DNA of 64,000 bases, from positions 2,418,001-2,482,000 of the forward strand of contig JAJTTP010000004.1 in assembly GCA_023313575.1 (NCBI GenBank), read 5' to 3'. The notes beneath the pieces were generated by a model. That model searched no databases. It saw nothing but the letters and a program-made list of their open reading frames with translations, and was not told the DNA's origin. Position 1 is the first letter of the stretch, and every line of letters begins with the position of its first letter. The translations under genes and the position numbers were made by a program. Below, piece by piece: positions 17,273 through 64,000 of this stretch. This stretch comes from Eutypella sp. D-1. Its lineage: Eukaryota; Ascomycota; Sordariomycetes; Xylariales; Diatrypaceae.

Positions 17273-18657
17273 GCCAAAGACTGTACGCTCAAGTTGGTCA
17301 CAGGGAAGTCCGGTACTATGAGCATCTCATTGTGATAGTAGATTAGCCGTCAGACGGGTATTATCTTGGGGGTCATTCGAAAGCTTATGACCAGCAACCT
17401 ATGGCCAGCACTTAATTCATTTTACTGCCTCCTGCGCCCATTTCTTAGCACATATGATTGTCAGGAATAAGATAATGCCAGAGTACACGGTGCCACCACC
17501 GCGGAGCTAATCTTTAATCAGGATAAGATGACGCTAGGACGCTGGACATCATACATCCAAGGCAGCCTGCCAGTCAGCCTTATGCCTGGGAGATAAGTAC
17601 AATTCTTTCTTACTTCAGAATTGAGCGGCAATTCAGGCAGTGGCTAGTTATACGGAGCGGCTCCAACAGGGGTAGCTTTCCCCCACGCTTTCCCTTCTCG
17701 AATGGTGTCTTGGCGTGGGAAACCGAAGACGCTTAAGCTCTCCGTACATTTATTGTAAGTTTGACAATCAAGTATGACCCACGGTTTGACTCCATATGGA
17801 ACAAGAGCTTTAAAAGGGATCGAATTACGACAAGACTTATACGAGAAGCCAATGCGTCACACATCTGTTATGCATCAACTCTTCAAACATGAGATGGTAT
17901 GTGAGGTAGGCATGATGCACAATCAATGAAGGAACAGATTGGCAGACATCCCCACCTAAATAGTCGGGAGGGAGATATGTGCTGTTTTTTTTGGTGTGAT
18001 TTTGGCATTCATGGCTATGGAAAATACCAACTGAGAGCATGATACTGGCAAACTGTGGCCTATGATACCAGCGCAAAAGAGCAAAACAATATTTCCATCC
18101 TAGAGCAATCAGCGATACCTGTCATGAGGATTAATCATGAACGTTTACTTAGTACCACGTAACGCTTCCACACCCAGGCAAGCACCCCTCCCTCTCCCAA
18201 CCCAAGAGACAACCTAACTGATATACAAGGATACTCTCTTACCCACACAATAGATTATGCGAGTGTTGCTATCACAAGCCATGATGGAGATTGCCTCTCG
18301 CGTAACTCACAGAGATCAGCTTTCAAATTCTTGTGGGAGTTCTTCCTGGAGATTAGTTTTTGATAATAGTAACGACGTGGGCGAAGAACCCCCTTTTGCA
18401 ATAGGACAACACAGGTGTGATGATTATTTGTATGCTATTGGAAACAATCGTTGCGTTAGCAAACGTGGAATCATGAAGTAGGTTATGAAACTGGATTGAA
18501 AACATCCAAATTGAGGTAAGCGTGGATATTTTACTCGACGTCTTTGTCCTATAAGTAAAGGATCACTCGGCGAATTCTGGGGTCTCAACACCACATCTGT
18601 ATTACCTTCTACCACTTTTAACTTCTACACGACATCTAGATTGAGCCAACATAAGAC
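17273..18657. other. AT-rich intergenic, no gene recognised
   Basis: About 1.4 kb leading to the Argonaute gene. Only short, overlapping open frames occur and none resembles an exon. The last 60 bp before 18658 are pyrimidine-rich. Confidence 0.4.
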
Positions 18658-21600
18658 ATGACTTCTATTACAGTGAGACCCAAGACGTCAGCTGGGGCAA
18701 GCGATACGAAATCCTCACTGGATGTCGTAGAAGCACCGCCTCGACCACAGCGTGAGCAAGGGAGCTTCACCAATTACTTTGCAAATTATTTTAAGGTCAC
18801 AGTAAAGTCTAAAATAGTAAGAATTTATGATATTACTGTCAAGCTCAATGGTGCTGCGAGTGACCATGGAGGGCCCACGGGCTACAAACGAAGATTTCTG
18901 ATCAAAAAGGCCCTTGAAAAACTTGCAAGTGCCGATACTTACGTATCAGATCTTAAAGACGTCTTGGTTTCCATCCATGAGATTGATGATTCTAAGCTAT
19001 CCTGTGAAATTTCGGACGAGAATGTGCCGTCGAAGACCTATACCATCTCACTTTCTGTTAAAAAGCGGATCGATATTAGAGACGCAGCTCAGCTTCTAGA
19101 CCGTGTATACACAAATTGGGAAAAATCACTATGTAATGCAAACAACCCGGTTGGTGATTACCAAGGCCCGTTGTGGTTTCTTGAGATTCTGGGCATCATA
19201 TTATCATACCAATCAAGGATTGATATAGGTCTTACCACCGTCGGTAGATCGCGCTTTTTTGATACTAGAGGCGAAGAAGACTCATGGGAGAGATTTCTCA
19301 ATGAAAGCGATCAGATACTGAAAATCATTAGAGGGTTTTCTCACAGCGTCCGTCCTGGGGACAGTTACTTCCTTCTCAATGTCAATTCCTGCTACGGGGT
19401 GTTCTACCCCAATATCAAGGTTTCGGAACTGATACGCGGCTCACCGTTACTTAAAACCCTCGAAAAGGGCAATGTATCCGAAAGACGCCTACATTCACGT
19501 CTCGTCGGAGCTCAGATTGAGTACAATATCGCTGGAAAGTCAATCTTCAAGACAATTGAGGGCATAGGTCAACCACCACAGCAGCAGTTCTTTATACTGC
19601 GAGAGGAAGAAGACAAAAACGGCAAAACCAAAGTCATGCATGGAAAGCTGGCAAGTGAGTTTAAGAGAAACTCAGGTTCTAATAATGAGTGGGGAATTTC
19701 CGTCTATCAGTATTTCGACCTCAGTGAGTATCTGCCTAAGTATTTGCAACACAATGTTAAGCTTACTAACCGGGTTGACGCAGGATATGGTATCAAGCTT
19801 GACCAGAGTCTGCCTACAATCCATATTGGCAAGCAATGTTATGTTGGCGCAGAGCAGTGTACCATCAGGCGATGGCAGGTATACAAAGGAGACATCGGGC
19901 AAGACGTGTCTTCAATGATCCAGTCGACTGCTCGAAAACCACAAGAGAGTCTTGAATGGATCAAGAAGGCCCCGAAGTATTTTCGATTTGGAAATTCGAA
20001 ACTCATGGTAAGCAAATTTTGTATGTCAAATGACAACGTAATAACTCATTGGACAGGAATCCTTCGCAGTAACCGTTTCGGAAGGCCTGGTGACGGTGAA
20101 GGGTAGAGAACTTCAGATCCCAACAATACGTTACAATAATCAAGTTAAATTCGTCCCCAAGCTAGGTGGATGGGACTTGTCGGACCCAGACACTCGATTA
20201 TTGTCAGCAGGCAAAGCCATTCATAGTGGTCAGCACCCTCTTACATGCTACTTTATCAACATAAACGATGATATCCGACAACATGAGTTCAGGCAGATGG
20301 AAGGAGCTGTTGAGGCCTTACTCGATCAAATGAAGAATGATGCAGGGAGTCAGCTTTTGGGTGTTGATTCGGAGACAGGGAGCCCAAAAGTTAACTTTAA
20401 AACAATTGAGGGCCCTTTATCATCGATCCTCGACAAAGCGAGAAAGGAATTTAAAGACAAGAGCCCCAAATACATGCCAAAATTCTGCCTCATTATTCTA
20501 CCGAGCATGAGAAGCAACGCCAACAAAGTCTATAGCTTATTTAAGCTACTTGGCGATGTTGAGTATGGGTTTCACACCGTCTGCCTTACTAAATCAAATC
20601 TCTTGATGACTGGTAGAGGCAAGATGATGACACTACGAGCAAATTTGGCTCTGAAGTTCAATATAAAGGCGAAGGGCTTGAACCATCAGGTCAGTAAGGT
20701 GACTCCAAAAGGAAATCTTGCCTCACTCATTGATAGCGCCACAATGATTGCTGGCTACGACGTTATCCATCCAACTGGAGGTTCTCAACCCCAGGAAAAG
20801 AGGTCTGATAAAGACGATAACTCGCCCCCTTCTTTCGTTGGACTCGTTGCTAGCGTAAGCCAAGACCTTAACCAATGGCCAGCTATTGCCTGGGAGAATC
20901 CATCCCGCCAAGAAGTGCTTAGACCTCATGAGCTAAGCGACAAATTTGGATCACGACTAGATATTTGGAGGGAAAAACACCAAGGGAACTTACCAACACG
21001 CATTATTATTTACCGTGATGGCGTGTCCGAGGGCCAGTATAATGAAGTGCTTCAAACCGAAGTGACAGCTATCCAGCACGCCTGCCACACCAAAGCCAAA
21101 AACCTCAACCAGAAGTCCCCGAAGATTCTCTTTATAATCGCAACCAAAAGACACCGCACGCGTTTTTATCGTAAACTAGACAAGGAAGATGCTACGAACC
21201 CCCCAAACGGCCTTGTCGTAGATAACGGGGTCACTGTCAGTCGGCACTGGGACTTCTTCCTGCAGCCTCACACCACACGGCCAGGTAAGAAAACATGGCG
21301 ATTTTGATAACATAGACACTAACTGAGCATTTCAGGCACCACGGCACGTCCGGCCCACTACGTCGTGCTGTATGACGAGTTTTGGCGGAAAGAACGCAGT
21401 ACAAGTAAAGGCTCAGTTACTAAACTAGCTGATAACGCAGCCACAGAGCTCCAGCAGCTCACTCATGACCTGTGTTACTCATTCGCAAGAGCTACGAAGG
21501 CTGTCAGTGTCTGTCCACCAGTATTCTATGCGGACCTTGTCTGCACACGAGCGAAGCTCCATTGGCAAGAGTACCAAAACCAGAGTGCATTATCGCAGGG

Positions 21601-24316: not shown

Positions 24317-27300
24317 TTACACATTTCCGTCACCTACCCTTCCGAACAGTAGCCCAGCCGAGGGACTCATCCCCTTGACACTAGAAGACATAGTAGGGTC
24401 GGACGTATAATACACAGCCCCCGCCACAGTGGTCGGATCAAGCGGCATGTGTGGCCATTGAATCCGGAAAGAGGCGGCAGCGACGAGTAGTAGTATGCAC
24501 AAGATAGCGATGGCGAACCAGGTGCAAAACCTGATACCCATATGAGAATCGCTCGCCTCAAAGGCGACATTGCCGAGCAGAAGAGGGAGGAGTTCAGCAA
24601 AGATGCCGGCTATCGATATGGCACCGAGGTAGTAATCTCGCGGCCGGCGAAGGAGGGCGGACCATACACCTCCAAAGACATTCGTGGGCGGCGTCATGGA
24701 GAATGCCTCGCGTTTGTACTGCGCATCTTGCCGGTCCAGCAGCCTGAATGGGCTTAGAAAGGAAACAGCTACCAATCTGTTAGTGAAAGTCTCTTAAGTG
24801 CGCGCGCGGTCTGGTATAGTTAAGGTATCAAACTCACAATAGAAGAACGAGTCCCAAGTGAAGGCTACGAAAACACCGAGAAACGTGAACAGAATCCGTA
24901 CACCGAATGACTCCCCATCCATGAGTATCCCCTTGCGTCCCCGGCCCGTGATGTGATAAACAAGCACCAATGCCAGCACTATACATATCGATGAGAGGAG
25001 AGCGATCCGGCCCGCGAATGTGAGCAGATAGAACGGCATGGTCTTCCCATTAGTCTTTACCATCTTCCGTGCACCTCGCCTTTTGATTCCAAACGTAACT
25101 GTCTTCCTTTCCTTTGCGAGCTCGATTTCGTTCGAGATCAAGATGCCGTACTTCGTTTCGGCATTTTCCCTCCAGGTGTTGAGTTCGAATGATATACCCC
25201 TGAACGCGCGGGCCGTGCTCTCGGCAGTTATCGTCCTGCCGTTCCTCCTCTCCCGGAGCGGCAACAGCAAGCGCTGAATGTCTGAGTTTGTCGCTAGGTT
25301 TGCCATCATTTCGAGGCTCCACGGCCCACGAACACCTGTTCTCCAGTGACGCAGCACAAGAATCGATGCACATGCAAGAATAGACATCAGAGCCAAGATT
25401 CCGATCACAGCTCTTGCGGTGTGGGGGAGAACGGTTAGCGTGACGGAGCACTCATCTGAGCCCGTCGCATCCTTGACACCCATCTTTTCACACAGGGGAT
25501 TCTCGACGGCGAAGTGCATTATTTCTCCGCTGAGGGGAATAAGGACAGCACTTGCGAGAGCCAATGTTTCTGTTAGACCAAGTATTACCTGGCCATGTGC
25601 TGCAGAACGAAAGCCGTTAAGGAAACTTCGAGGTCCAGTTGTCGCCAGGCATAGAGACTGGGAAGCGGGGACACCCCCTTCAGATGTCATGGCGTGGAAT
25701 GGCTGGTAGAACCTAACCGTTCGGTCTAGGATTCTGATCGGAATGGCCAGAGCGATAGCAAATATTGTCGGTAACATCAGAGCGGCGAAATACTGTGCAT
25801 CCGAAATATGCGACAGGCCCTCCCTAGCATCGTTGCCATGATCGGCTGTCGAAGTGGGAGCCGCTGGGTGGTGTATTGACTTGGTTGTGGACGGAACAGG
25901 CACGAAGTCCGTAGTTGTTTTCGTCGGGACACCATTGGCGTTGAACATGGTGCGAACTACGGGCATCTCCGTTATGCTGAACGTCCCGGTAGCGGTCGGG
26001 TGGCCATCTTTGTCGTAGAGCGTCGTCTCCACTGGCACGAAATAATAAGTCAAGGTCCCGGTCGGTCGTCCCTGGTAGTCTGTAAGCACGGACTTCTGCG
26101 ACGCGTAGAGTACCGCCCGCGTCTCGGTCTTCGTAGGCCTGCCATCGGCACCCGTTAAGACCGTGGTGACGATATCCCGATAGGCCCAAAATGCGTCTTC
26201 GGTGTGGCCATCGCGGAAGGTGGGGGTATAAAAAGTTAACGCCGCCTCGAGCATCTTATGTCCAAAGTGGATCTCATCGGTAGCGCTAGCATCCACGCTT
26301 TCGGTGCCGACTGCGGCCATTCCGTCTTGGTCTGTGGCTGGCCCCTGTGGCTCATCGGTGATGACGAACGTAGTGAAAGCTTCAAGACCCGAGAATAGAT
26401 CCTGATGTTCATCTTGCACCGCAGTAGTCTCTATCGCAGCTGACGTGATGTGAGGTGGGATGGGCTTTAGCGCAGTAGTGACTCCGCCTGTCAAACCTGC
26501 AGGTTTAGCGATGATTGTTTCCAGACCAGAATTTCCCGATGTCACTATGAGGCTAGGGTCATCGGTATCATGGATGTTCGCCTCCGGCTCCTCTCCATCG
26601 TGCGTGGGTATTTCCGTGGTGGTTTTCGAGGAACCCTTCTGATTAGCAAGATGAGGGGCGGGCTGTACATCTGTAGGTTGAGATGGAGGCCGGGCAGAAG
26701 GCTGCGTTCCCGGTTGCTCAGCATTGGGTGATGGTTTCTCTGGCGATGGTGGTGACGGTGGTGCCGGCGATTGTGGTGGAGATGGTGATGGTGATGATGG
26801 CGGTGATGGAACGGCAGGCGGGCTCTGCGGGGCATCTGTAGCTGGAGGCGCGTTTTCCTGTCCTGTCGTTGGGTGTGTAAGGGGTAGGTTAATCGGTGTA
26901 GGTGAGGGGTTCTCGGGGGCCACTTCTACTGGACTTGGGCCTTCCAGAGGTGGTTGATCAGGTGGCGGCTTTTTTGCACCCGTGGTAGGTGAGACAGCAA
27001 TGCCCAAGCCTAATGCCCCATTCTCGGTCGGTTGCTCCACAGGTAATGTGTTTTCGGGTTTTGGCTCCGGTACATTCTTCTCGGGTGGAGTCGGTATTGC
27101 GCCCACTGGAGGTTGGCCTACGACTGGAACCTCTGTTCCTTCAGGTCTTGATGCTTCAGGGGATGGCTTTGGTCCTGGTGGATTCTTTTCTACTCCTGGG
27201 AAATTTGGCTTTCCCTGAGGCTGAGGCTCTCCTTGAGGATTTGGCTTCTCGGGATCAGATTGATTGGTATCACCTGGTGGTTGCGCTGGAGGTGGCGTAG

Positions 27301-28777
27301 ACGGTGGCAGAGGAGGAGATGGTGGTGGTGGGGTCTTGTTGGGTGCAGCGGTTCGTATGTCTCCGGGGCTCGTGACTTGAGTTGATATAACTTTGATAGT
27401 AAAAAAGTCGTCAGTAGGCACAGTAATTGGTGATACTATTGGTTTCTCGTCTTTGTTCTTGTCAGTAGGTTTATTTTCCTCTGACGGTAGCACAGTAGGC
27501 GATGCTGCTCCGTTACCCGTATCATGAACAGCCTTGGTGGTCTTTGTGCTAGTGGAAGGTTGAGGCTGGGGCTGGTGACCAGGGGTATCAGTCGTGAGGG
27601 GCAGCACAGTTGTTTCTGGGCTTGGCGACAAAGGTTTATCCGTCACTGGATCGCTGGCTTTAGTATCGCGTGTCGGGTCACTAGTATATGATGTCTTCTG
27701 AGTCTCACTAGTTATAGGGACAGGGATAGGAGTCTCGGGGTTCACCAGCTTTGTTGTGGTAGGCGGAGATGGTACCTGTAGTGTTGGAGACTCTATTTCA
27801 GGTGTGGTTGGTGGACTCGTTGGTGGAATTGCAATGCTTGTCTCGACTGAGATGGGAACATTGGGCTGAGGGTTAACCCCCGGGCTTTCACCTGGGGGGG
27901 AAAGAGGGTCTCCTTTCACCGGTGCTGGAGTGATAGCTTTGGTCGGTGACACCGCAACGTCCTCGCCCCCTGTTTTCGTCGTGGCGGGTGAAGTCAAGAC
28001 TGGGGGATCCTCGATGTGAGTCGTCCCTTGATTCGCGGCACCGCCTTGACCGTCTGTACCCCCGAGCACTTCATCCTCTTTGTCCTTGCCAGCGCCCGAA
28101 TTATATTCCGTTGCACGAACACGAAGTCCCACTTCGCTTGAGTTGGCGACACCCTCCTGGTTGATTTCGTCCGATCCCTTCCGCACCAGCTGAATAGTGA
28201 GTTCAGTCATAGCTAATAGAATGAGTAGCGCCGCTATGAGTGCGACCAAGAAGCGTTTTCTCAGCACCAAAGGCTTATATTCGGATGGGGTCGGAACGTG
28301 GGCCTCTACATTCCCCTCCGACCCTCTGTACCTAGTGTCGACTGGATCATCCAGGTAGAGACCGTCCACCTCCACGGCGAATCTAGTCTGTTTTGGCTGC
28401 ACCTCGATACCGAGCCCAGCCTTGAGACTTTTGGTGGGCGAGAGGCTGACGGGCTGTGGGCCATAAAACTCGGCGCGGTATTCGGCGAAGTTCGCGATAT
28501 CCTCCTCATGATAGTCAGGGCTGTCGACCTCGAGGTAGTCGCTACTGAGCGAGGTCGTGTCCGAGAGAGCCGGGGAACCATGGATGCTTTGCTTCTCGGA
28601 GTCCCACTGGAGTTGACTTTCTTGTCGGGGTATGTCCTGCAGGTGATAGGGTAAATGCTCGGACGTCTGCCTTTCATGTGCCGAATGCCTTTGCTCTCCA
28701 TCGGCATCAATTTGCGGGACCTCCTCAAACCCGCCTCCTACGGCTCGCCGAACCCGCCCGGTTGCTGCGCGATACAT
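24317..28777 (-). CDS. Giant proline-rich membrane protein, DUF3433 type
   Basis: Exons 28777-24838 and 24768-24317 encode 1463 residues. The 69 bp intron has a GTGAGT donor, a CACTAAC branch site and a GTAG acceptor. A cytosolic N-terminal region of about 175 residues precedes a membrane helix (about 176-197). Next comes a very long extracellular stalk rich in Pro, Ser and Thr (about 210-800), then several 20-30-residue units with the core D-x-x-G-x-P-T (GADGRPT, DYQGRPT, DKDGHPT, NANGVPT). The C-terminal third has several membrane helices and reads like DUF3433 proteins (RTVRFYQPFHAM, then repeated hydrophobic spans). The layout suggests an O-glycosylated wall-spanning stalk anchored at both ends, perhaps a wall-stress sensor; that is inference. 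The whole stalk lies in one exon. Confidence 0.82.
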
Positions 28778-30140
28778 ATCATAGGCGAAAGTGTATTATT
28801 TAGTGCGACAGCCAGTCAAGGAATCGCGAAGCTAGCGCATCTTGCCTTGCTCAAAGCGTTCAATAGTCGGTTATCCACACAGCATGACCTGAAGAAAGCT
28901 TCAACTTGGTATCCAAGACAGCATTGAAATTCGAAAACGAGGCTCGGGGCTCCATTAACTATGCATCAGTCCCGCTGCCCCCGGCTTACAAGTCGTTGCG
29001 AAGTAAGGGCAGGTGGGTCCGAACTGCGAACAAGGTGTGGCTCACCAGGCGATGATACTGTTCCCTGCAACGTACCTACCGCTGAGAGTGCGATCGCTTC
29101 TCGCGGCGAAGCCGTCAGGGTCGCCTGAAGGACGAACTCCCGCCCTTAGCGAATACACCAATCATCATCTTGAGAAGACAGCAACAGGCCAATGGGGGTG
29201 TGGGGTAAGCCGGCGGCAGTTGTAGCCCCCAATATCCCGATGCATATTAGTCCTTCTGGACAGAACGGGAAAATATACTGCAGGCTCTGGCTGCATCCTA
29301 CTCTGACTTGCATCTTGATAGCGAATGGCGTTGGTCGGATAGACGTTTTTAACATATTCGCCAACAGTCCCCCTGTCGATTGCTGTCCTTCGCCCTTCCA
29401 TCATGATGATTATTTATAAAGTGCATCACTGAAGGAATGCACTTTGCCCGATCTCGATTCCTCAGACCCCATTATCGCCCGGTCTCGACTGGCTCGCTAT
29501 ACCACTGTAATGCCGATGTGACCTTATACCCCCAAAATAAAATAAGATCGAGGCCTAACAGGAAATGCATACGGCGGGACCTATTTTAGATATGAGAGAC
29601 GCCGTATTTGAACTGTTCCCTAAATAATGCAACTGAAGGACAAATATGACGAATGGGAAACTGGAACGTATGGACAAGAGAACAGGAATGCGGCAACCTT
29701 GTAGTCCCGAGTCGGGTCTGCGTTAACACATACCGTAGATTGCTGGCGTGACCGGTGCGGTCGGTACCCCGCTCGCTCGCGCGTCCCGATAAGCCCACTG
29801 CCAAGGGGCACACTCGCTGTAACCCTACACCTAGTAATTCAGCAATGTGTGATCCAACAAGACGCGTTTGCTATCATAAGCGCATATACGGGGAACGGCA
29901 TTCCAGGGTACAGCAAATCGAATGAATAGCGGGTCGGTGAATATCTGACCAAAGACCAGTCCATATGGCCGGGAGCATTCTGGTCAGCGACCGAGGAAGG
30001 CCAGGGGCCTTAAAAGACCAAATGCACACAAGTGTCATGGGAGCAGAATGAATAGTTGATGAAATTGGCATGTACATGGTGTAGCTGTGTTAATCCACGT
30101 TAAACAATAATCGTGGCTTGGCGAATTCGATGGCGATATA
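28778..30140. other. Intergenic, no gene recognised
   Basis: About 1.4 kb upstream of the DUF3433-type gene and downstream of the next minus-strand gene. Open frames are short and overlap one another; none carries a motif. Confidence 0.4.
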
Positions 30141-63029: not shown

Positions 63030-63867
63030 TTACTCTTGCCACCTTTTCCCCTCCCCCTGCGCCTTTCTTTCAAGGTCAACATCGTCATAGATTTTGTCCA
63101 GGAACCCGGCCGCCAACTCATTGAGGTTGTTCAGGGTGTTTGCGTAGTTCAGCATGAGGCCCCGGTCCGTAGCCTGATTCCCTCTGATGGTCACTTGATC
63201 GATGTGGGCATAGTTATCCTGCTGATCGAGTCCATGCCCAGCTTGGCTATTGAGTATAGGCGCATTCAGCATAATGCCCCGGCTAGTCGCGATATTGTCG
63301 ACGATGGTGCGAGACGTCATAGGCCTGTTGACACTATCTGCGCTTGGCACCGATCTGGTGACGAGCTCTTGAAGCTTCCGGTTGATTTCAGACGACAAGC
63401 CGATATTCACGATGCCAATGGTGAAGCTGAGATTGTTCTTGCTGGCTGTCAACTGCTCGATGGACCGCTCCAGGGCTAGCTTCTTCTTATTTTCGCTGAC
63501 GAGTGTGCGCGCTATGTCGGCAACCCCTCTGCCCGCGTTGTTGCTTGTAGCCAGTTCCATCTCGATGGCCTTGGCTATCATCATGATCTCCCGAGCCTGT
63601 TTGGTGGCCCCGGGATGATTCTGTAGGGTTGGCTCGGCTTTGAGGGCGTCAAGGATGACAGTGGCTATGTTGACTTCCCTCTGAGATTCTTCAAGGAAGA
63701 CGCGCATCTCCATCGAGTCTTTCAGGACGTCGTAGACCGCACCGATGGCCACGCCAGCGAGACGCAGGACCGCGGCAGTAGCACCGAAGATCTCCAATCC
63801 AGACTATGCTCGTGATTTTAGTTAACCAAATAATCATTCAGGCGGACGGATAGGTATGCCGTACCAT
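63030..63867 (-). CDS. HET-S-like protein: helical N-terminal domain plus two amyloid-motif-like repeats
   Basis: Reconstructed exons are 63867-63865 (ATG only) and 63803-63030, encoding 258 residues; the 61 bp intron has a GTACGG donor, a GTTAACT branch site and a CATAG acceptor. An in-frame TAG lies just upstream of exon 2, so the intron is needed to supply a start. The N terminus reads MSGLEIFGATAAVLRLAGVA, like HeLo-like and STAND N-terminal domains, and the first ~155 residues are predicted helical. Two motifs follow: IVDNIATSRGIMLNA (168-182) and IRGNQATDRGLMLNY (207-221), nine of fifteen identical. This is the layout of HET-S, where a helical killer domain is switched on by a prion fold of two related repeats. 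Amyloid formation is inference. A partner NLR would lie beyond the window. Confidence 0.7.
63144..63305 (-). repeat. Pair of 15-residue HRAM-like coding repeats
   Basis: Repeat 1 is 63305-63261 and repeat 2 is 63188-63144, 39 residues apart from start to start. The shared pattern is I-x-x-N-x-A-T-x-R-G-[IL]-M-L-N. In HET-s the two repeats are similarly about 36 residues apart and end R-V-x-[LI]-G-N; here the Arg-to-Asn distance is also five residues. The DNA of the two copies has diverged, so the conservation is at protein level. Confidence 0.6.
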
Positions 63868-64000
63868 ATTTGCTGTCTTCGAAGAATCAACCCGTTCAAT
63901 TTCTCAACGTTTTAAAGCAACCAGATGCAACTAACGCTTTCGACAGGATAATCTTGATCAGTCAGGGACAACACATGTAATATCACTACTGAGAGTAAAA

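Follow-up and report, generated by a model that had tools for sequence, protein, structure and literature searches.

A candidate amyloid-signalling gene cluster with paired C-terminal motifs in Eutypella sp. D-1

Introduction

Fungal amyloid signalling is described as comprising five motif families and one provisional family (PMC12261475, available part). The partner types described in the available parts of PMC9815663 and PMC5485727 are pore-forming, lipase and PNP_UDP-type. For the HRAM class, the accessible text of PMC4518210 describes glycine 19 as perfectly conserved, gives PF11558 matches for only 38 of 155 HRAM proteins, and reports NLR adjacency for 98 of the 155, so that adjacency is common and not required. 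PF17111 is the family named HeLo-like (PMC9815663, same available part).

The gene described here lies near the end of a 64,000-nucleotide stretch of Eutypella sp. D-1 DNA (the window). The flanking sequence examined is the 28 kb past the window end, and the genome searched comprises 48.5 Mb in 72 contigs. Positions outside the window are given on the genome (G000).

Results

Gene model of the candidate effector

The candidate effector gene occupies window positions 63030..63867 on the minus strand. The two-exon model encodes 258 aa and agrees in start, end and length with the preliminary description of the locus. Exon 1 is the start codon alone (63865..63867, ATG|GT junction), followed by an inferred 61-bp intron (63804..63864, GTACGG...CATAG, of the GT...AG type) that comes from the sequence-based gene model only, and by exon 2 (63030-63803), all on the minus strand. 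A database protein, P0001, is 94% identical to the candidate over 97% of the query, and the frame is therefore backed as coding. Within the two 14-residue motifs described below the single difference between them is L217F, with both copies kept; the extreme C-termini differ. The protein search was restricted to relatives with short exact words in common, and with 1948 candidates scored out of 5.8 billion proteins P0001 alone came in at E up to 10, so by such a short-word search the candidate is close to an orphan. Pfam gave 0 matching families at E up to 10, and NCBIfam gave nothing useful.

Elsewhere in the window, an Argonaute-type gene was noticed on the plus strand at 18655-21307 (Piwi E 2.1e-45, ArgoL1 E 1.9e-8). 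A 1333-aa open frame on the minus strand (24794-28795) matches DUF3433 (E 5.4e-16) and includes a long stretch rich in proline.

The repeat pair

The motif I-x-x-N-x-A-T-x-R-G-[IL]-M-L-N occurs twice in the candidate, and the spacing of 39 residues is as first read. Copy r1, IVDNIATSRGIMLN, spans residues 168-181 (window 63264..63305, minus strand), and copy r2, IRGNQATDRGLMLN, residues 207-220 (63147..63188, minus strand); each is 14 residues long. The copies agree at 9 of 14 residues and, in the DNA, at 27 of 42 bases. The pair is the top ungapped self-match of the protein, with a BLOSUM62 score of 45. That 6 of 1000 shuffles reached this score, and that the candidate has no Pfam match, would suit a chance resemblance within an unremarkable orphan protein. 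The same core is nevertheless paired likewise in three neighbours and in P0004 (see below), and the frame is retained in P0001; chance is an extremely improbable explanation.

A degenerate DNA pattern for N-x-A-T-x-R-G-[IL]-M matched only r1 and r2 in the whole 48.5-Mb genome. The repeat pair is real and rare. With up to 2 mismatches the search returned one extra place, SFATARVIMVN on contig C25, which was considered as a second carrier of this motif variant and taken as chance.

Relation to HET-S and the HRAM class

The HET-S-type layout first proposed for the candidate, an N-terminal domain followed by two C-terminal copies, holds up. Its suggested placement in the HRAM class does not: no HRAM profile match was found, and the HRAM feature score is at chance. 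The candidate lacks a profile match to either PF14479 (HeLo) or PF11558 (HET-s 218-289). Scored for the HRAM features as stated in the available part of PMC4518210, each copy has 4 of 8 in the motif register: HRAM positions 3 and 5 are N and A in r1 as in r2, and G19 and R/K15 are missing. In the best registers 1453 of 3000 shuffles did as well as the candidate; for the het-S homolog of this genome the figure was 2 of 3000. For the other proteins of the cluster described below the counts out of 3000 were 1683 (HELO2), 1244 (UBL1), 1789 (UBL2) and 2140 (the first 60 residues of REC).

The genome's own het-S homolog served as the positive control. It shares the candidate's contig at a distance of about 330 kb, matches HeLo (E 3.8e-52) and HET-s 218-289 (E 3e-20), and has 7 of 8 HRAM features in both repeats. 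The homolog and a divergent NLR gene occupy G000:C34:2151705-2153720 (L012, L022, L023, L042); the divergent neighbour has NB-ARC/NACHT matches and one weak motif copy (E 0.004, below the cut-off). With both profile and pattern tests negative for the candidate, HRAM membership was rejected. A plain HET-S homolog with a variant HRAM would have the same layout and length class and would account for the N and A at positions 3 and 5 in both copies, but it is already disfavoured and very improbable given the unmatched PF14479 and PF11558, the chance-level HRAM score and the missing G19 and R/K15 in the motif register.

Another HeLo-domain protein was noticed at G000:C11:154641-155231 (L018). Another amyloid-like motif may be present in its C-terminus, which abounds in N, G and S.

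Neighbouring genes with the same motif core

Past the window end, three genes modelled from sequence alone lie on the minus strand: UBL1 (ubiquitin-like, 173 aa, G000:C34 2486098-2486713), UBL2 (ubiquitin-like, 148 aa, G000:C34 2488664-2489271) and HELO2 (HeLo-like, 253 aa, G000:C34 2490689-2491511). The first exon of HELO2 is the start codon only, as in the candidate, and none of the modelled exons of the cluster has an interrupted frame. A secreted-looking protein, also on the minus strand, is encoded between the candidate and UBL1 (L009 3376-4341, G000:C34:2483376-2484341); its 188-aa main part has no Pfam match.

In each of the three neighbours I-x-x-N-x-[AS] is found twice and no more, both times towards the C-terminus: at residues 112/140 in UBL1, 95/123 in UBL2 and 193/222 in HELO2. 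The relaxation of A to [AS] and the widening of the motif were made after the neighbours had been seen, and these forms are partly post hoc. The stricter I..N.A occurs 5 times in the 574 aa of the three proteins (shuffle mean 0.18; 5 copies reached by 0 of 20000 shuffles). The comparison set of 474 other open frames (each of 100 codons or more, 97543 aa in total, read stop to stop and in many cases non-coding) has 16 copies, none of them paired at a spacing of 20-45. The second copy of UBL1 consists of the core only and is not recovered by a leave-one-out matrix.

Motif-independent genome searches linked the same proteins. The best non-self match of HELO2 in its own genome is the last exon of UBL2 (E 0.37; next 2.82), and the sole non-self match of UBL2 is the C-terminus of HELO2 (E 0.32); these E-values are weak and only 4 and 3 first-look candidates were scored, respectively. 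Two database homologs of HELO2, P0002 (57% identity) and P0003 (55%), keep both repeats.

The "ubiquitin-like" label of UBL1 and UBL2 rests on weak matches. UBL1 has a weak Pfam ubiquitin match (E 0.17), and in a PDB sequence search it matched ubiquitin chains over residues 30-55, although among the top matches no single stretch reached significance. For UBL2 itself Pfam gave no ubiquitin match (E up to 1), and the protein is tied to UBL1 by a single comparison (E 0.001). Weak Pfam matches to SL4P, Kre9_KNH, RNase_HII, DUF1257 and DUF719 were discarded as noise. From about C34:2484 to 2504 kb the GC content is 42-48%, against 50-58% directly on either side; stretches of 44-46% also occur inside the window, and the low GC hints only mildly at an accessory region.

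A stepwise link to HeLo-like domains

The N-terminal domain region of the candidate (residues 1-155; window 63342..63867 on the minus strand, including the intron) aligns with the N-terminal domain of P0004, a protein of Cadophora sp. DSE1049 (Helotiales). A profile of HELO2, P0002 and P0003 found P0004 at a weak E of 0.56, the 7997 candidates with most words in common having been scored. The sequence of P0004 fits I..N.A...[AG].Q exactly at two places 28 residues apart (two copies in 0 of 200000 shuffles). Its alignment with the candidate spans 235 residues at 23% identity (E 1e-4 in a single comparison), and it aligns with HELO2 at E 1e-4, likewise in a single comparison.

For the N-terminal domains alone, hhalign gave 43.9% between P0004 and the candidate (E 2.4e-4, 134 columns, 0 of 150 shuffles) and 90.6% between P0004 and HELO2. 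The N-terminal domain of HELO2 reaches 94.8% against the genome's PF17111 set (reversed 0.2%) and 54.1% against the SesA set. P0004 itself has no direct match to the PF17111 set (2.6%; reversed 5.0%). A joint profile of the candidate and P0004 scored 72.6% against HELO2 (reversed 0.1%) and 26.4% against the PF17111 set (reversed 11.5%). Taken directly, the candidate domain reaches at best 4.1% against the HeLo, PF17111 and SesA sets (reversed up to 2.7%), and blastp of the candidate against HELO2 gave nothing (E 15). The HeLo-like domain that had been suggested for the candidate is thus tied to HeLo-like domains in steps, through P0004 and HELO2, and not by a direct profile match. A helical N-terminal domain is plausible; the single-sequence structure model of the candidate, all helix, has a mean pLDDT of 41 and is uninformative.

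At G000:C1:489590-490924 (L071, L072), two divergent SesA proteins have C-termini with repeats of the NxHTGxGxQNxNTG type. We take these C-termini to resemble sigma motifs.

An NLR-like gene with a putative N-terminal motif copy

An NLR gene had been expected just beyond window position 64000. The next motif-bearing gene is instead 4.2 kb from the candidate and ubiquitin-like. No NLR lies immediately adjacent to the candidate, the next genes on that side being the secreted-looking protein and UBL1, and none was recognised between the window end and REC. The expectation of a partner NLR was borne out in part: an NLR-like gene, REC, with one N-terminal copy of a related motif belongs to the same cluster, 17.8-18.8 kb past the window end. 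REC runs on the minus strand from G000:C34 2500784 down to 2499797, with two exons and 309 residues, and the model is incomplete at the C-terminus. It is single-copy in the genome.

A NACHT-type domain in REC is indicated by NPHP3_N (E 1.1e-7, above the cut-off, profile positions 54-164). The profile match lacks the preceding part, where a Walker A would be expected, and no Walker A match was found. The protein also contains HVVIMLDNIDAID, which we take to be Walker-B-like, and an ILITSR stretch, both read from the sequence. No sensor repeats were seen in the model. At the left edge of the window, a plus-strand fragment at 2-1018 matches NPHP3_N with a score short of the cut-off (E 3.8e-4) and is possibly another NACHT-like gene.

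A motif matrix scan led to NSISGNSVSSLSTQYNINN, residues 8-26 of REC, as one related copy. Most HRAM and PP motifs begin at residues 5-9 of their NLR (PMC9815663, available part), and the position of the REC copy therefore agrees with known systems. Its matrix score was reached by 1 of 2000 shuffles, and its similarity to r2 of P0002 and of P0003 was equalled by 0 of 270689 unrelated 19-mers. The score of 15.0 lies within the 12.4-18.6 given by ten column-shuffled matrices on the same sequences. Shuffles of the serine-/asparagine-rich REC N-terminus match r2 of P0002 and of P0003 as well (20 and 26 of 3000). The copy is not close to HELO2's own r2 (416 of 270689) or to the copies of P0004; it is nearest to r2 of the HELO2 family and less near to the candidate. 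In sequence comparison, residues 8-26 are a moderately significant related copy, and if it is accepted an NLR-like protein of this genome has the motif.

The shortness of the motif, the moderate significance of the REC copy and the poor fit of the tested known amyloid-motif patterns would all suit another explanation, in which I-x-x-N-x-A is an ordinary docking motif. The proteins of a fast-evolving accessory cluster would then bind one partner or chaperone in common, with no amyloid and no NLR templating. Two C-terminal copies behind a HeLo-like domain together with one N-terminal copy in an NLR-like protein are, however, the arrangement of HET-S/NWD2, and the composition is alternating and rich in N, Q, S and G. 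Docking appears rather unlikely, though it is the most probable of the alternatives.

A transposon-like element lies about 270 bases downstream of the REC frame (L010 8894-9526, G000:C34:2498894-2499526). It has 30-nt inverted repeats (L010 8894-8923 and 9497-9526, 90% complementary) and is flanked by the 8-bp direct repeat GTTATACC; a further open frame (L010 9457-9780) extends into it. The element may interrupt the rest of REC. Between HELO2 and REC, a gene transcribed in the other direction matches DUF7025 (E 7.7e-19; L010 6170-8719 +, G000:C34:2496170-2498719), and AAA-ATPase-like stretches were read in it by eye.

The candidate as the outlier of the cluster

The motif of the candidate is the most divergent one, with M where the others have Q (the M form and the Q form) and with a spacing of 39 as opposed to 28-29. 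Against a matrix built from the other cluster proteins, its best score was reached in 90 of 2000 shuffles and its best pair in 129 of 2000. The two best windows are exactly the two repeats. When the P0004 copies were added to the matrix, these values became 4 of 3000 for the best copy and 0 of 3000 for the pair. The P0004 copies themselves were reached in 0 of 3000 shuffles with the candidate in the matrix, and were weaker without it (19 and 63 of 3000). The REC copy is fairly close to r2 of the candidate (40 of 270689), not to r1 (2010 of 270689).

No second NLR with the candidate's motif variant was found by degenerate DNA patterns across the genome or by matrix scans of 38 loci. These loci represent 38 of 53 matches to the genome queries NB-ARC and NACHT, namely 8 of 12 and 30 of 41, some in the same gene. 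The candidate could respond to REC, to an NLR outside the 38 scanned, or to none.

With no Walker A match in REC, an insert with 30-nt inverted and 8-bp direct repeats directly downstream of it, and a candidate that departs from the Q form and from the 28-29 spacing, the cluster might once have worked as proposed below with REC now damaged, or the candidate might be tied to an NLR outside the 38 scanned, the M form being a diverged leftover or a second specificity. The open cluster frames over all modelled exons and the retention of both copies in P0001, P0002 and P0003 argue against such a relic or separate channel, and it is distinctly unlikely.

Discussion

The reading preferred here is that of an amyloid-signalling cluster of an undescribed motif class, with the candidate as a HeLo-like effector at its edge, and it has about an even chance of being correct. 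The core I-x-x-N-x-[ASV]-x-x-x-[SAG]-x-[QM] would act as an amyloid-like signal. The members would be the candidate, a second HeLo-like effector (HELO2), UBL1 and UBL2, all with motif pairs, and REC with its one N-terminal copy. Once activated, REC would build an amyloid-type template from its own N-terminal motif, and the paired motifs of its partners would fold onto that template. HeLo-like domains freed in this way would damage the membrane of the fungus's own cell, and UBL1 and UBL2 might be drawn in too, to serve as adaptors or to provide a second output.

At the level of sequence, the locus displays the motif pairs, their sharing by neighbours, the stepwise domain links and the NACHT-type domain of REC. 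Amyloid folding, templating and membrane killing are what HET-S/NWD2 and HELLP/PNT1 would predict, and on that analogy the candidate is probably a membrane-acting effector. The same two systems are the ground for supposing that the M-form candidate answers to REC at all. The fuller wiring, in which one NLR-like protein is connected through the undescribed motif class to two HeLo-like killers and two ubiquitin-like proteins, all under the control of one template and with a ubiquitin-type output, is put forward tentatively, at somewhat less than even odds. The locus is compact, and the specificity of the Q form and the M form and the wiring of one receptor to many partners would be directly testable in it.

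Compared with HET-S/NWD2 and the HRAM1-5 motifs (PMC4518210, available part), the locus has a similar small protein, in which a plausibly helical N-terminal domain precedes two C-terminal copies. It likewise has an NLR-type protein with one putative N-terminal copy at the same locus, and N and A early in each copy. It differs in that the HRAM pattern is absent and the HeLo profile unmatched in the candidate, and in that the receptor lies apart from the candidate and would have four partners, two of them ubiquitin-like.

The locus also resembles HELLP/SBP/PNT1 (PP) and SESA/SESB/HET-eN (sigma), where, in the available part of PMC5485727, one NLR and several kinds of effector share one motif in a cluster and a HeLo-like or SesA-type domain is present. 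In place of lipase partners, ubiquitin-like ones occur here. The PP core N.G.Q.G.N and G.Q.G are absent from the candidate, UBL1, UBL2, HELO2, REC and P0004. No sigma match was found in Pfam for the candidate and REC (E up to 10) or for UBL1, UBL2 and HELO2 (E up to 1), in a check run without a sigma positive control and with short motifs easily missed. Recent fungal amyloid-like classes common to NLRs and effectors, PUASM and the provisional GDQN (PMC9815663 and PMC12261475, available parts), are similar in kind and differ in motif, as F.G.G.Q..G.G.F and GDQN are absent from all six proteins tested.

In the open-access literature, with most subscription papers outside it, no report of the motif or of ubiquitin-like partners was found. 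If the preferred reading is true, a further motif class with ubiquitin-like partners would extend the lists of both motif families and partners. The kind of system is a known one; the motif class and the ubiquitin-like partner type would be new.
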